Below are positions 545 through 13,655 of a stretch of 28,792 nt of DNA, piece after piece. The first letter of the stretch is position 1, and the number at the start of each line of letters is the position of its first letter. Below the pieces are notes generated by a model. That model saw nothing but the letters and a program-made list of their open reading frames with translations, did not search any database and was not told where the DNA came from. Source of the stretch: a virus; the IMG/VR virus record IMGVR_UViG_3300027418_000039, positions 1 through 28,792 of that record; one strand, 5' to 3'. A program made the position numbers and the translations under genes.

Positions 545-1960
545 ATGCAATACTCGCTTTCGAATCGACTTGGAAAATTTTCTGGTGGACTTGATCCAGC
601 GGCAAGTGCATATATTTCATTAGTACAAGCTGCTGACGGTATTCCGCTTGAATCGTCAATTAAAAAAGCAATCAATAATTTCGTTAAGGGTTGCAAGTCG
701 GACTCAAGCCCAAACGCCGGAGTAAGCAACTGGGATGCAATAAAATCATGCTGTTTACTTTCCGGGCCTAGAAGCCTTAATGGTGCGCTTGTACCACTCA
801 AAGGCACTGCTCCGACAAATGTTGGGTTTATTGGGGCTGGTACTGACTACGCAAGAGCAACAGGAGCAGTTGGAAACGGTACTACCAAATATCTAAATTC
901 AAATAGGCCTAACAATGCTGACCCACAAAACAACAACCATAATTCTGTTTATATTACAAATGCTGTAACTGGTGTTATATCTGCATATATTGGGGCTGGT
1001 GCTACTGGAAGTGGAGCAAACACCATAAGCCAGAACGCAATAAACGCCACACTTAGATCTAGATTTGCGACATCATTAATTCTTGGTCAACCACATCAAT
1101 CTGGGTTTGTTGGACACTCAAGAAATGTAGGTACTTCTTATTCGTATAGATTTAGATCTTCAAGTGGGACGCAAAATGATGCTTCTCAAACACCAAACGA
1201 CAATAGGGTATTTGTATTTGCTAGAAGCAATGGTGCGACCGCTGAAATCCCAACGGCATCTTCCATCGGGTTTTACTCAATCGGGGAAGCAGTTGATTTA
1301 GTTAAACTTGAAAGCAGAGTAAACTCGTATTTTTCAGAAATTAACGCCGTTCTATCTCCGCCGCAGCCGTCAACTCCATCTGCGTATATACTTGGATCGA
1401 GCACTGCTGTCGGAGTTGGAGCCACATCTGGAAATTCATGGGCATCTAAGTTTTCCACATATTACGCCAGCACTGGTACAACTACCAATATTGCTGTTAG
1501 TGGCACAACGGTAGCTAACGCTTCTCCGACTGGTTACACAATTCCAACTGGCTGGAATGATCAGCCAGACCCATTGAAGAACATCACATTCGCCGCAAAT
1601 GCTGGAGCCGACCTTGTTCTAATCAACTTCCCCAGCAATTTCATCAACCAAACAAACGGAACCACGGCAAATTACATGACGGTGCTGTCGTCTATTGTAA
1701 ATTTGTGTGTAAATTTGGGAATTGACTACAGAGTTTTCACCACACAACCACGAAATACTGATTCTACAAAAAGACAAATTCTAAAGGATACTGCAGATGC
1801 TATTATATCGACCTATGGAGCCAAAGTAGTCAATACTTTCGCTGAACTGGCAGACCCTGCGACACTTGAGATCAAGCCAACATATAACGCTGGTGATGGA
1901 GTACACATTAACAACGCTGGTCATCTTTATCTGTACAATCAACTAATCGCAACACTATAA
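545..1960 (+). CDS. Tail fibre/spike-like protein with C-terminal SGNH (GDSL-type) esterase domain
   Basis: 471 residues if started at ATG 545, two bases after the previous stop; an in-frame start inside the preceding gene is less likely. The first ~270 residues are Gly/Ser/Asn-rich and beta-like, typical of phage tail appendages. The C-terminal ~190 residues look like an SGNH hydrolase: the block I strand is YILGSSTAVG with the likely nucleophile at Ser286 (GSS in place of GDS), and block V is DGVHINNAGH with Asp451 and His454. SGNH enzymes deacylate or de-esterify, and in phage tails they often trim O-acetyl groups from capsule or lipopolysaccharide. The role in receptor processing is inferred. 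The lysis genes follow, the usual order in many phages. Confidence 0.72.
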   Translation: MQYSLSNRLGKFSGGLDPAASAYISLVQAADGIPLESSIKKAINNFVKGCKSDSSPNAGVSNWDAIKSCCLLSGPRSLNGALVPLKGTAPTNVGFIGAGTDYARATGAVGNGTTKYLNSNRPNNADPQNNNHNSVYITNAVTGVISAYIGAGATGSGANTISQNAINATLRSRFATSLILGQPHQSGFVGHSRNVGTSYSYRFRSSSGTQNDASQTPNDNRVFVFARSNGATAEIPTASSIGFYSIGEAVDLVKLESRVNSYFSEINAVLSPPQPSTPSAYILGSSTAVGVGATSGNSWASKFSTYYASTGTTTNIAVSGTTVANASPTGYTIPTGWNDQPDPLKNITFAANAGADLVLINFPSNFINQTNGTTANYMTVLSSIVNLCVNLGIDYRVFTTQPRNTDSTKRQILKDTADAIISTYGAKVVNTFAELADPATLEIKPTYNAGDGVHINNAGHLYLYNQLIATL

Positions 1961-5172: not shown

Positions 5173-5229
5173 CCGGGTGTACACATGTGGCAACATTCAC
5201 GCAACGGGCTAAACCACCCGTCCAAAACA
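5173..5229 (+). promoter_or_regulatory. Short intergenic leader before the recombination genes
   Basis: One of the few gaps in the early region. It contains the palindrome CACATGTG (5182-5189), adjoining GTGTACAC, and a short ACGGG/CCCGT hairpin, then a CA-rich stretch ending at ATG 5230. A good sigma70 promoter is not evident. Confidence 0.3.
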
Positions 5230-5817
5230 ATGAACCTAGAACATACAACCGCAGGGCTACAGAAAGCCCTATCCAAAGCACAGAGTGAAGTCGAGAACGC
5301 AACCAAGGGTAGCGTGAATCCGCACTTCAAGAACCGCTACGCAGACCTCGCTGAAGTGTTGAACACGGTGAGACCTGTGTTTGCCGCCAATGGCTTGTCT
5401 ATCATCCAAAGCACTGCTTACGATGGATCGCTTGTCAGCGTCACCACAACCATCCTCCACGCCGAGGGTGGCCACATTAGCTCCACCGCATCGTGTGTCC
5501 CAGCTAAAGCAGACGCACAGGGCGTTGGAGCTAGCACCACCTACCTTCGCCGCTACGCCCTCGCAGCCATGACTGGCATCGCGCAGGAGGATGATGACGG
5601 GCAGGCAGCCTCACACAGCAAGCCTGCTGCTGCAGCGACCAAGGAGGACATCTCCAGCCTCAAGGAGCGCATGGAGGGGCTTGGCGTGGACGAGGAAGCC
5701 TTCCTCAAGTACCTCGCGGTCAAGTCCCTCAGCGAGCTGACCAAGCCCGTGCTGGTCAAGGCTAACGCAAGCTTGGATGCCAAGGCCAAGAAGATCCAGA
5801 AGGGAGGTGCGGCATGA
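5230..5817 (+). CDS. erf: Erf-family single-strand annealing recombinase
   Basis: 195 residues. Features typical of the ERF superfamily: an N-terminal helix with LQKALSKAQSEV, then VNPHFKNRYADLAEVLNTVRPVFAANGLSI, a beta segment with TTTILHAEGG, and the QGVGASTTYLRRYALAAMTGIA signature (about residues 95-117), followed by acidic DDDGQA and a helical Ala/Lys-rich tail. Erf proteins form rings on single-stranded DNA and anneal complementary strands, helping circularise phage DNA. ATG 5230 is preferred over 5185 because the helix begins there and a CA-rich leader precedes it. The gene ends with AAGGGAGGTG, an SD for the next gene. Partners: the RecE-like nuclease and the SSB-like protein downstream. 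Confidence 0.85.
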   Translation: MNLEHTTAGLQKALSKAQSEVENATKGSVNPHFKNRYADLAEVLNTVRPVFAANGLSIIQSTAYDGSLVSVTTTILHAEGGHISSTASCVPAKADAQGVGASTTYLRRYALAAMTGIAQEDDDGQAASHSKPAAAATKEDISSLKERMEGLGVDEEAFLKYLAVKSLSELTKPVLVKANASLDAKAKKIQKGGAA

Positions 5818-6620
5818 GCAAGATCATCCAAGGACTAGGCGAGGAATACTACACCCGCACAGCTACCCCCAGAGACCTATCAGGCCCGGTATCCAAGTCC
5901 CTGCTCTGGGACTTCAATCAGAGTCCCTACAGGTGGTACAATAAGAGCCGCGACAAGGAAAGCACCCCCGCCATGCGGACTGGCACGCTGTACCACACGG
6001 CATGCTTGGAGCCTCACAAGCTGGAGACCGAGTACATCGTCTCACCCTACTCTGACTTCCGCACCAAGGAGGCTAGGGAGTGGAGGGATTCGCTGACGGG
6101 CATTCAGGTCATAACCGCAGACGAGTACATCCGAGCCGAAAGTGCCGGGTATGCGTTTAGGAAAAATCCTGCAATTGAACACTTGCCAGACTACCAGACC
6201 GAGGTCGCGGTGTTTGCCGAGGTGTTTGGCACCCCCTGCAAGTGTATGATCGACCTAGTTCCATCCGAGGGTTCGTCGCTGATCGACCTGAAAACAACTC
6301 AGAGCATTGAAAGCTTGGATCAACTCACATCGCTAATCATCAATCGTGGCTACCACTGGCAAGCTTCATTGTATTGCGATTTGTGGGAGATCGCCACTGG
6401 CGAAAAACGCAACGAGTTCATCATCGTGTTCATGGCAGTTGACCGTCCTTTCGAGATGGCAACCGTCCTGCTCGACGAGGATTTTATCAAGCTTGGCCGC
6501 GAGGGTTACATGCAGGCACTAGCCAAGTGGAACCAGTGCGTGCAGACGAAAACATTCCCGCCAGCAATTGACGGGCTACAAACAATCTCCCCCCCAAAAT
6601 GGGCATTAAAACAAAAGTAA
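5814..6620 (+). CDS. RecE-like PD-(D/E)XK exonuclease
   Basis: 268 residues, start overlapping the previous stop (ATGA) with a strong SD GGAGGTG inside the upstream gene. Motifs match the RecE/DUF3799 exonuclease group: SKSLLWDFNQSPYRW near the N-terminus, GTLYHTACLEP with His61, MIDLV with Asp147, LIDLKTT with Asp158 and Lys160, and HWQASLY with Gln183 and Tyr187. These enzymes degrade one strand of double-stranded DNA so an annealing protein can act; pairing with Erf here mirrors RecE-RecT. Full length for the nuclease core. Confidence 0.85.
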   Translation: MSKIIQGLGEEYYTRTATPRDLSGPVSKSLLWDFNQSPYRWYNKSRDKESTPAMRTGTLYHTACLEPHKLETEYIVSPYSDFRTKEAREWRDSLTGIQVITADEYIRAESAGYAFRKNPAIEHLPDYQTEVAVFAEVFGTPCKCMIDLVPSEGSSLIDLKTTQSIESLDQLTSLIINRGYHWQASLYCDLWEIATGEKRNEFIIVFMAVDRPFEMATVLLDEDFIKLGREGYMQALAKWNQCVQTKTFPPAIDGLQTISPPKWALKQK

Positions 6621-6622
6621 CC

Positions 6623-6850
6623 ATGAGTAACTACGACAACACAAATACGGGCATTCTGTTCAAAAACGATGTGGGTGACAACCCTAAGCGTCCAGCCTAC
6701 AAGGGCAAGATCGACATTGACGGCAAGGAGTATCAACTGGCTGGCTGGCTCCGCGAGGGCAAGAGCGGCAAGTTCATCTCGCTCAAGATTGACGACAAGG
6801 CTGCGGCTAAACCTGCGTCAACAGAAGAGACCGACGAGATCCCCTTCTGA
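6623..6850 (+). CDS. Small SSB-like protein with acidic C-terminal tail
   Basis: 75 residues beginning MSNYDNTNTGILFKND, then a beta-rich core (YKGKIDIDGKEYQLAGWLREGKSGKF) and a low-complexity linker ending in DEIPF. The DDIPF-type tail is the hallmark of single-stranded DNA-binding proteins, where it recruits partner enzymes. The core resembles small phage proteins often found beside recombination genes. Its position two bases after the RecE-like stop supports a role in recombination. Direct ssDNA binding is inferred. Confidence 0.6.
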   Translation: MSNYDNTNTGILFKNDVGDNPKRPAYKGKIDIDGKEYQLAGWLREGKSGKFISLKIDDKAAAKPASTEETDEIPF

Positions 6851-6863
6851 TTCCCATGCATGA

Positions 6864-6925
6864 GTGGTGACATGCGCTTCATGCCCCTTGGCTCCGAGGG
6901 TTCACCACAGGGCAAACTACTTTCC
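6864..6925 (+). promoter_or_regulatory. Structured leader RNA, copy A (three-way junction plus possible pseudoknot)
   Basis: Paired segments: P1 GTGGTGA (6864-6870) with TCACCAC (6902-6908); P2 CATG (6871-6874) with CATG (6880-6883); P3 CCCTTG (6885-6890) with CGAGGG (6895-6900), loop GCTC (6891-6894). One T links P3 to P1. Then A and GGGCAA (6909-6915), whose GGGC can pair with the GCTC loop (one G-U). The ATG at 6926 follows ten bases later. Copy B at 7210-7265 shares the layout with different stem sequences. The segment is also open in frame with the next gene, so translation through it from ATG 6860 is the alternative. Confidence 0.6.
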
Positions 6926-7198
6926 ATGCAATTCATCAAACGAACACTAAATTTTGGCGCAAAAACCAAAGTCAAAAACCCTGATATCATCCGAGAAGAG
7001 AAGGATTTGAGGTACGGAACGCCTGTCTTTAATTCGACGCAAATCAAGGGTGACTTCTACCGGGTCATTCCCGCTAACGCTAGGGAGGTTTTTTACCTTC
7101 GAAACCTAGAGCATCGCGTTGACAAGTTCGCCCCGGCTAGGGGCAACGGAGTCATCGTCCGCTGCTCTGCCATTGACGCAGTAGCCAACCATGCCTGA
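6926..7198 (+). CDS. Hypothetical protein after leader RNA A
   Basis: 90 residues if started at ATG 6926; ATG 6860 in the same frame would add 22 residues (112 in total). ATG 6926 is preferred because the intervening bases form the structured element shared with copy B. The protein is basic (MQFIKRTLNFGAKTK), with a mixed alpha/beta appearance and no recognisable motif. No family recognised. It lies between the SSB-like gene and the DnaA-domain gene, which suggests replication or recombination, but nothing in the sequence proves this. Confidence 0.5.
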   Translation: MQFIKRTLNFGAKTKVKNPDIIREEKDLRYGTPVFNSTQIKGDFYRVIPANAREVFYLRNLEHRVDKFAPARGNGVIVRCSAIDAVANHA

Positions 7199-7209
7199 CC
7201 ATTCTACCA

Positions 7210-7265
7210 GCATGGAGGTAGGTTCTACCCGTTGCCCACGGGTTCCATGCAGGGCAACCCTTTTA
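7210..7265 (+). promoter_or_regulatory. Structured leader RNA, copy B (three-way junction plus possible pseudoknot)
   Basis: P1 GCATGGA (7210-7216) pairs with TCCATGC (7244-7250). Inside are P2, GGTAG/CTACC around GTT (7217-7229), and P3, CCCGT (7228-7232) with ACGGG (7238-7242), loop TGCCC (7233-7237); P2 and P3 compete for two C residues. One T links P3 to P1, then A and GGGCAA (7251-7257), which can pair perfectly with the TGCCC loop. GTTGCCC/GGGCAAC is the corresponding 7-bp alternative. ATG 7266 follows eight bases later. The order and linkers match copy A. Confidence 0.6.
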
Positions 7266-7616
7266 ATGACCGTAACACATGTAAATGACCTCACGACCGA
7301 CGAGCTGTGCGCCGAGCTAGATCGCCGCATGTCTCGCAACAAAGCCAGCAGGACTATCTCTGCTGTCGCAGAGGTGTTTGGCGTACACCCCAGCCAGATA
7401 TTCGCCTACGACAAGCAGCCGACACCCTCACAGGCTAGGACGCTTGCTATGGCACTGGTGAGCGAGCATCACACGCTGGCAGAGACCGCACGCATCTTCC
7501 AGAGGAAAAACCATACGACGATCATCTCCGCGAAGCAGAGGGCAGACGCGCTTACCCGGCAGGACGCATCGTTCCGCGAGAAGGCCAAGTTCGTCCTCAA
7601 CAGACTCAAGTCATGA
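7266..7616 (+). CDS. Orphan DnaA domain IV-like DNA-binding protein
   Basis: 116 residues from ATG 7266; ATG 7191 (overlapping the previous stop) would add 25 residues through the leader RNA. Residues ~31-96 match the C-terminal DNA-binding domain of DnaA: ISAVAEVFGVHPSQI, ARTLAMALVSEHHTLAETARIF, then RKNHTTIISAKQ, close to the DnaA signature R-[DK]-HTT-[VI]. There is no AAA+ ATPase part. It could bind DnaA boxes and act as a decoy, a regulator or an origin-binding factor. Its stop overlaps the next start. Confidence 0.75.
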   Translation: MTVTHVNDLTTDELCAELDRRMSRNKASRTISAVAEVFGVHPSQIFAYDKQPTPSQARTLAMALVSEHHTLAETARIFQRKNHTTIISAKQRADALTRQDASFREKAKFVLNRLKS

Positions 7617-7933: not shown

Positions 7934-8142
7934 TAATCGACCAAATGACAGCGACCGACAGGATTGAATACTTGGAAAACCTACTCAAAGTTTCGCAAAC
8001 CACGCTTGAGTCCGTGATAGAGCAACGAGACCTCTGGAAGGCCGAGGCTGAACGCTGGAGAGAGCAGGCAGGTGAAAACTTCCAAGTGACGGCATGGAAA
8101 CAACTTATCGAGCAGGAAAGGAATAGAATGCGAGGACTATGA
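7930..8142 (+). CDS. Small coiled-coil protein
   Basis: 70 residues, start in an ATGA overlap. From about residue 8 it is one long helix rich in Glu, Arg, Leu and Trp (RIEYLENLLKVSQTTL ... WKAEAERWREQAG), with heptad-like hydrophobics. No catalytic motif. Its stop overlaps the next start. Function unknown; probably an oligomerising accessory protein. Confidence 0.55.
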   Translation: MIIDQMTATDRIEYLENLLKVSQTTLESVIEQRDLWKAEAERWREQAGENFQVTAWKQLIEQERNRMRGL

Positions 8143-8372
8143 AAACCATTGATCAACTTATCTACGACATTCAATACCAGTTCCCGCTTTGGCCAAGCAC
8201 CTACAGCACCTGCGAGCGTGACGGGTGCGAGAGGGCAGCGAGAGGTGGAAGGGTTTGCTTGGACTGCCTAGAGGATGATCTAGCAGCACTCACAAACAGG
8301 CAGGACGCAGGAGAGTTTGTTGACGCATGCGAACATATGTCCCGAATCAAACACCGACTGATCAATGCATAA
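8139..8372 (+). CDS. Small Cys-rich (zinc-knuckle-like) protein
   Basis: 77 residues, ATGA overlap with the coiled-coil gene. Cys25, Cys30, Cys40 and Cys43 (CERDGC, then CLDC) could bind zinc; a helical C-terminus with His and Asp follows. No family recognised. Its last bases overlap the next tiny gene. Confidence 0.55.
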   Translation: MKTIDQLIYDIQYQFPLWPSTYSTCERDGCERAARGGRVCLDCLEDDLAALTNRQDAGEFVDACEHMSRIKHRLINA

Positions 8373-13533: not shown

Positions 13534-13608
13534 TGGCTCCTGCGGTTGGGTTCGAACCAACGACCTAGCGATTAACAGTCGCTTGCTCTGCCGCTGAGCT
13601 ACACAGGA
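13534..13608 (-). tRNA. tRNA-Asn (anticodon GTT), CCA encoded
   Basis: Minus-strand cloverleaf: acceptor TCCTGTG / CGCAGGA (one G-U), D-arm GCTC / GAGC, anticodon stem AGCGA / TCGCT with loop CTGTTAA giving anticodon GTT, T-arm GTTGG / CCAAC with loop TTCGAAC, discriminator G and genomic CCA. 75 bases with CCA, no intron. All stems are complete, so it is probably functional. It is the only tRNA seen. Phage tRNAs may offset codon demand or host tRNA cleavage; it could also be a captured attachment-site tRNA, though no integrase is present here. Confidence 0.93.
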
Positions 13609-13610
13609 TA

Positions 13611-13655
13611 AAAAGAAACCTCCCTTGGTGCGCTTCGCAGAGAGGCGTGGGAGGT
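13611..13655 (-). terminator. Terminator-like hairpin directly before the tRNA 5' end
   Basis: On the minus strand: ACCTCCC (13655-13649) pairs with GGGAGGT (13624-13618), followed by TTTCTTTT (13617-13610) and the tRNA starting two bases further on. The arms are perfect (7 bp), with a 24-base loop that can fold further. Its place, ending at the first base of the tRNA, is odd because it would stop transcripts before the tRNA. Confidence 0.55.

Follow-up and report, generated by a model that had tools for sequence, protein, structure and literature searches.

Elements A (6864-6915, + strand) and B (7210-7257, + strand) of the phage DNA studied here belong to an RNA family missing from Rfam. 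The window, that is, the whole stretch that was analysed, is the 28,792-nt IMG/VR viral record IMGVR_UViG_3300027418_000039 (positions 1-28,792). Sequence comparison shows that a fold of the sense-strand RNA is under selection and that it occupies intergenic sites immediately ahead of gene starts; its action on translation, and the direction of that action, we infer. Our preferred reading, held tentatively at a probability of about 0.4, is that this small folded RNA acts in cis on the polycistronic early phage mRNA and gates translation of the next gene.

The early recombination/replication genes of the window are ordered Erf-type, RecE-type nuclease, ssb, element A, gene A, element B and DnaA domain-IV, with the following features:

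5185-5817, Erf-type annealing protein gene
5814-6620, RecE/exonuclease VIII-type nuclease gene
6599-6850 (+), phage ssDNA-binding protein gene (ssb) upstream of element A, with an acidic ..DEIPF tail; PHROG ssDNA-binding protein, E 1e-14
6863 (+), element A: invariant A immediately 5' of P1, an A in 45/45 aligned copies
6864-6870 (+), element A: P1 5' arm GTGGTGA, pairing with 6902-6908; covaries within the family
6871-6884 (+), element A: variable 14-nt linker without a conserved helix
6885-6900 (+), element A: P3 hairpin CCCTT-GGCTCC-GAGGG with a pseudoknot strand in its loop; covaries in three of five pairs
6901 (+), element A: one-base hinge U from P3 to the P1 3' arm; mostly U, C or A in divergent copies
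6902-6908 (+), element A: P1 3' arm TCACCAC; covariation
6909-6915 (+), element A: A followed by GGGCAA, the 3' pseudoknot strand plus conserved AA; pseudoknot pairs in 43/43 distinct copies
6916-6925 (+), leader of gene A with a conserved CUUUCC
6926-7198 (+), gene A, small protein downstream of element A, kept in relatives
7209 (+), element B: invariant A immediately 5' of P1, invariant family-wide
7210-7216 (+), element B: P1 5' arm GCATGGA; covariation
7217-7227 (+), element B: variable 11-nt linker without a conserved helix
7228-7242 (+), element B: P3 hairpin CCCGT-TGCCC-ACGGG; covariation
7243 (+), element B: hinge U, from the aligned copies
7244-7250 (+), element B: P1 3' arm TCCATGC; covariation
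7251-7257 (+), element B: A followed by GGGCAA, the 3' pseudoknot strand plus AA, from the family alignment
7258-7265 (+), leader of the DnaA-domain gene
7266-7616 (+), DnaA domain-IV protein gene downstream of element B; Pfam Bac_DnaA_C, E 1e-10

Both elements were found where the first-pass annotation had placed them, and its P1 arms, P3 stems, single U, GGGCAA box and start codons at 6926 and 7266 could be read in the sequence, as could the ability of the P3 loop (GCTC in A, TGCCC in B) to pair with GGGC. The Pfam match bears out its naming of the gene after element B as a DnaA-domain gene, while the gene A protein has no Pfam or PHROG match. GGGCAA by itself is frequent in the window (29 matches against 22 expected), and the octamer CAGGGCAA by itself is not above chance; it is the surrounding context, not GGGCAA itself, that sets the elements apart. 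CM searches of the window gave E-values of 2.9e-16 and 1e-13 for the two elements, with every other match at E of at least 0.47; these scores are inflated in part, since the models include close relatives or A and B themselves, and E-values of short-calibrated models are rough, so that the covariation counts weigh more as evidence.

A two-helix model was used to align 45 copies, and pair statistics were taken on the 43 distinct ones. Across P1, P3 and the pseudoknot, 97.7% of cells are standard pairs, whereas shuffles give 83.1% and slid pairings no more than 44.5%; the shuffles leave relatedness in, whereas the slid controls remove it and are decisive here. Two-sided compensatory changes number 105 cells against 21 in shuffles, and none of 500 shuffles reached the observed score. 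The annotation's proposal of a covarying RNA conserved in cis, as opposed to a peptide, is thereby strongly supported. Among the most divergent copies the majority of P1 pairs are changed with pairing retained, which is more than relatedness alone explains. G-U cells outnumber A-C cells by 52 to 5 (in an earlier 39-copy set), showing that the RNA is the gene-sense strand.

The conserved core of the element, about 50 nt in length, has three parts: P1 with 7 bp, the P3 hairpin with about 5 bp, and a pseudoknot of 4 bp between the P3 loop (GCCC or GCUC) and the GGGC that follows P1. P1 has 7 bp in almost all copies, with sequences such as GTAACGA/TCGTTAC, GCTAGGA/TCCTAGC and GTTGCGA/TCGCAAC, and P3 is shortened or mismatched in the most divergent ones (contigs L194, L243, L249 and L250). 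The pseudoknot strands are GCCC or GC(U)CC with GGGC, a single GGGU in L225 being the exception, and the pairs are near-constant with one G-U change. Because it varies too little, the pseudoknot is backed by perfect complementarity and context, not by covariation; many copies came from patterns that fix its letters, and the protein-found copies carry it too. The other fixed letters are the A before P1 (in all 45 copies), the A before GGGC, the AA after it and a UUU soon after. As only one base lies between P1 and GGGC, the knot would need a compact shape, with P3 folded back along P1.

The annotation had proposed a three-way junction with a second hairpin, P2. P1, P3 and the pseudoknot stand, but the supposed P2 is a linker of 9-17 nt without a conserved helix: RNAalifold predicts only P1 and P3, constrained folds give differing hairpins or none, and both self-pairing of the linker (mean z 0.5) and its pairing with the start region (mean z 0.36) are near or not above chance. 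Linker pairing is seen in single copies, for example L120, L137 and element A of L048, but over the family the linker is at chance, both as a hairpin and in pairing with the tail, the start codon or sequence as far as 100 nt downstream.

A lack of further homologues with preserved pairing would, by the annotation's own criterion, have refuted it; the search yielded 41 further IMG/VR phage contigs that keep the pairing, each with one or two copies; two of the 41 are identical to the window over the element stretch, and all carrier records are uncultured contigs, of phages from water. Searches with the proteins of gene A and the DnaA-domain gene led to viral contigs with both elements, a first pattern scan to two more distant phages (L043 and L048), each again with both, and a second pattern scan to 18 additional contigs with one element apiece. 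A nuclease profile search, independent of the RNA, added six more divergent carriers (L194, L225, L243, L245, L249 and L250). Whole-record searches gave one or two copies per record and no others elsewhere, many copies being the sole one in their record. Six extra viral loci from a looser pattern were rejected as chance matches without CM support. Two genome-contig scans of cellular genomes gave no true member (one was empty, the other returned four matches without P1 or P3), and the DNA of the two element regions had no match in isolate-phage records. Among phages with a related ssDNA-binding protein, a model search did not find the element in Venkman; Vibrio 1.074 was compared by gene layout only.

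The annotation could match the element to no named riboswitch or leader class, and comparison with Rfam 15 gave no family at gathering or relaxed thresholds (E up to 10), with snoRNA, lncRNA and COG3860 noise as the only low-scoring matches at the element regions. The c-di-GMP-I riboswitch was considered on account of the GGGCAA stretch and rejected, an Rfam match being absent. Elsewhere in the window (13534-13654, - strand), a tRNA-Asn gene is directly preceded by a match to Rfam abiF RNA (40.1 bits), whose hairpin may serve as a terminator because a T-rich run follows it. The phage contig L120 also has an abiF match, at 997-1033 (- strand).

On a tree of the nuclease from 64 relatives, the element needs seven changes, at least six of them forced by well-supported branches, compared to 21.6 in shuffles. 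Its distribution is clustered on the tree, yet the element has been repeatedly gained or lost. L019 and L194 are without element A, and the ssb stop there overlaps the gene A start. By eye, relatives without the element have one of three things at the junction: a TGATG in which stop and start overlap, a plain short leader, or sequence resembling a promoter. The last is seen in L196, L197, L201 and L246, where the ssb stop is followed by promoter-like sequence of the TTGACA type and a gene for a small Cys-rich protein (MK[KT]CF[KR]C...), an arrangement suggestive of a gene inserted together with its promoter.

All copies checked are intergenic and have an ATG a short way downstream, the element following the ssb stop codon either directly or one gene later. 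P1 is separated from the stop codon by 10-18 nt in most copies, the shortest spacer being 0 (L249) and the longest 53 (L194), and GGGCAA lies 8-10 nt from the ATG in most copies, 17-20 nt in a second group, 7 nt in L194 and 35 nt in element A of L043. In L043 (reverse strand), a 15-nt perfect hairpin, ATCACAAATTGTGAT, flanked by CTTTAAC direct repeats, is located between element A and the ATG; without this extra hairpin the gap is 20 nt, matching the second group. Just upstream of element B in L194 (3804-3863), CTGTCCTTAAATAAACAAAAC occurs in three perfect tandem copies. Modulo 3, every value of the distance from P1 to the ATG is represented among the relatives, in many of which in-frame stop codons fall within the element, so no conserved peptide runs across it, as the annotation had argued from the different reading frames of its two copies.

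Unrelated genes follow the element, among them gene A, the gene of the DnaA-domain protein, members of a 68-aa family and, in L120, a longer inserted gene. This L120 insert, a gene of about 270 aa, separates the element from the 68-aa gene, and both genes open with the same codons, ATGATTGAA, which suggests recombination at the start region.

The next start codon is 7-20 nt beyond the knot and the previous stop 0-53 nt (mostly 10-18) ahead of it, and gating of translation would work as follows. The closed knot would lie within or next to the ribosome landing site, and a ribosome ending the upstream gene would open it, or a bound factor would hold or release it, thereby altering initiation. The fixed loop letters, together with the A's and GGGCAA, point to recognition of specific sequence by a part of the ribosome, a protein or a small molecule. 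Of the annotation's suggestion that initiation is controlled by masking of the start, control of initiation would still be the likeliest function. The hiding of a Shine-Dalgarno site does not fit: only 4 of 27 starts in the window phage have such a site against a 12% background, with no enrichment, so the element is not hiding one. GGGCAA is itself not a Shine-Dalgarno motif, and the element is not a leader that sequesters one. In bacteria that do not rely on Shine-Dalgarno sites, mRNA structure tunes initiation (PMC6847099). Proximity to the ATG is weak evidence for gating, because a compact phage genome puts any intergenic element near an ATG, and the variable gap from element to ATG counts against it.

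A phage-coded partner was sought by comparing ten carriers and the window with ten non-carriers. No protein strictly tied to the element was found in this comparison, which misses short or diverged proteins and in which several records are fragments. The best candidate, a small Cys-rich protein at 8139-8372 of the window, CERDGCERAARGGRVCLDC, is common to many, not all, carriers; it was rejected, since 4 of the 11 carriers lack it and 3 of the 10 non-carriers have it. A role as nucleic-acid-binding partner is possible for this protein, although strict co-occurrence is lacking. The absence of a strictly co-occurring phage protein makes a host component a slightly better candidate than a phage-coded one.

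Among other explanations, the knot may block an exonuclease (5'-3' of the RNase J type, or 3'-5' arriving from downstream) and so set the ratio of upstream to downstream mRNA, in the manner of eukaryotic viral xrRNAs. Such a decay element would require no fixed distance to the ATG, and the topology of the knot is that of plant-virus xrRNA-D, which also occurs intergenically (PMC6299227). However, fixed and varying parts are reversed between the two, and the literature searched gave no phage exoribonuclease-resistant RNA of this kind; we regard this explanation as unlikely.

If the element worked on RNA polymerase as an antiterminator or a suppressor of pausing, as HK022 put RNA does, this would account for two copies of a sense-strand RNA in an early operon ahead of changing genes; put RNAs are likewise two similar structured early-operon sites and act directly on RNA polymerase (PMC9378689). 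But many records have one copy only, no terminator-like site (GC hairpin and U run) was found at the elements and no excess of them nearby, and the element is mid-operon with no excess of promoters at its site, whereas put RNAs are near early promoters. A transcriptional role is thus quite unlikely. That the knot is itself, in phages without use of Shine-Dalgarno sites, an internal initiation element, recruiting or holding ribosomes between genes through RNA shape and not through Shine-Dalgarno pairing, we consider about as unlikely.

Were the invariant loop, the A's and GGGCAA the pocket of a metabolite riboswitch controlling the next gene, the size, pseudoknot and highly conserved unpaired letters would be those of a small aptamer, and riboswitches are present in phages (PMC9004378). 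The downstream genes, however, share no common pathway, the element is absent from the cellular genomes scanned, where a metabolite sensor would be expected, and an Rfam match is lacking; the probability of this explanation is small. That the element is a small self-cleaving ribozyme of a new class, whose cut at the invariant A (position -1, 45/45) releases the downstream mRNA, would come as a considerable surprise: the 7-bp P1 and a hairpin loop pairing just 3' of it resemble P1/P3/P1.1 of HDV-like ribozymes, of which minimal forms without P4 exist in phages (PMC10879173), but the P2 helix is missing and no ribozyme in Rfam matches. Although inverted repeats can serve as protein-binding DNA sites, a signal at the level of DNA (cruciform or protein operator) or of a conserved coding sequence is scarcely credible, given that the tenfold excess of G-U over A-C fits sense-strand RNA only and reading frames are not maintained.

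Returning to the folded RNA itself, its compact, covariation-backed structure enlarges the small set of structured regulatory RNAs described from phages, and may be a portable control part, as it is kept while downstream genes are exchanged. The window phage, without Shine-Dalgarno use, makes a role of intergenic RNA structure in initiation, decay or transcription testable, and an element of about 50 nt with simple design rules and many natural variants is easily probed and placed in reporters.

Compared to known systems, the element resembles xrRNA-D in layout: a stem, an asymmetric internal loop and a hairpin whose loop pairs with the bases immediately 3' of that stem (PMC6299227). In xrRNA-D, a eukaryotic (plant) virus RNA, the internal loop (L1/L2B) is more than 97% conserved and the pseudoknot covaries (PMC6299227), whereas in the phage family the linker varies and the pseudoknot and tail are fixed, so that the topology is shared but membership is rejected on the conserved L1 and varying pseudoknot. 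It also resembles the P1/P3/P1.1 part of HDV-like ribozymes. HDV-like and theta ribozymes share with it a 7-bp P1 around P3 and a loop that pairs with the bases right after P1, and they too occur in phages (PMC10879173). The phage element differs in its longer P3 and loop pairing and its invariant A before P1, and it is not a member, as no P2 closes a double pseudoknot (the linker is no more complementary to downstream sequence than expected by chance, with mean z 0.1 for 20, 40 and 100 nt). Glutamine riboswitches of the glnA and downstream-peptide types, known in marine phages, are likewise compact pseudoknotted phage RNAs (PMC9004378), but the present element has no Rfam match and precedes unrelated genes. 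The autoregulatory pseudoknot of T4 gene 32 is also a phage pseudoknot near a start codon and tied to an ssDNA-binding-protein gene, but is located upstream of gene 32 itself (PMC535899), whereas the present element has another fold and follows the ssb stop codon instead of preceding ssb's own start, and an operator of the T4 type was rejected. HK022 put RNAs are also paired, similar, structured sites in phage early operons, but are of about 70 nt with two stem-loops (PMC9378689), and membership fails on both fold and place. Put RNA and the T4 gene 32 pseudoknot would therefore be, at most, functional analogues of the family described here.
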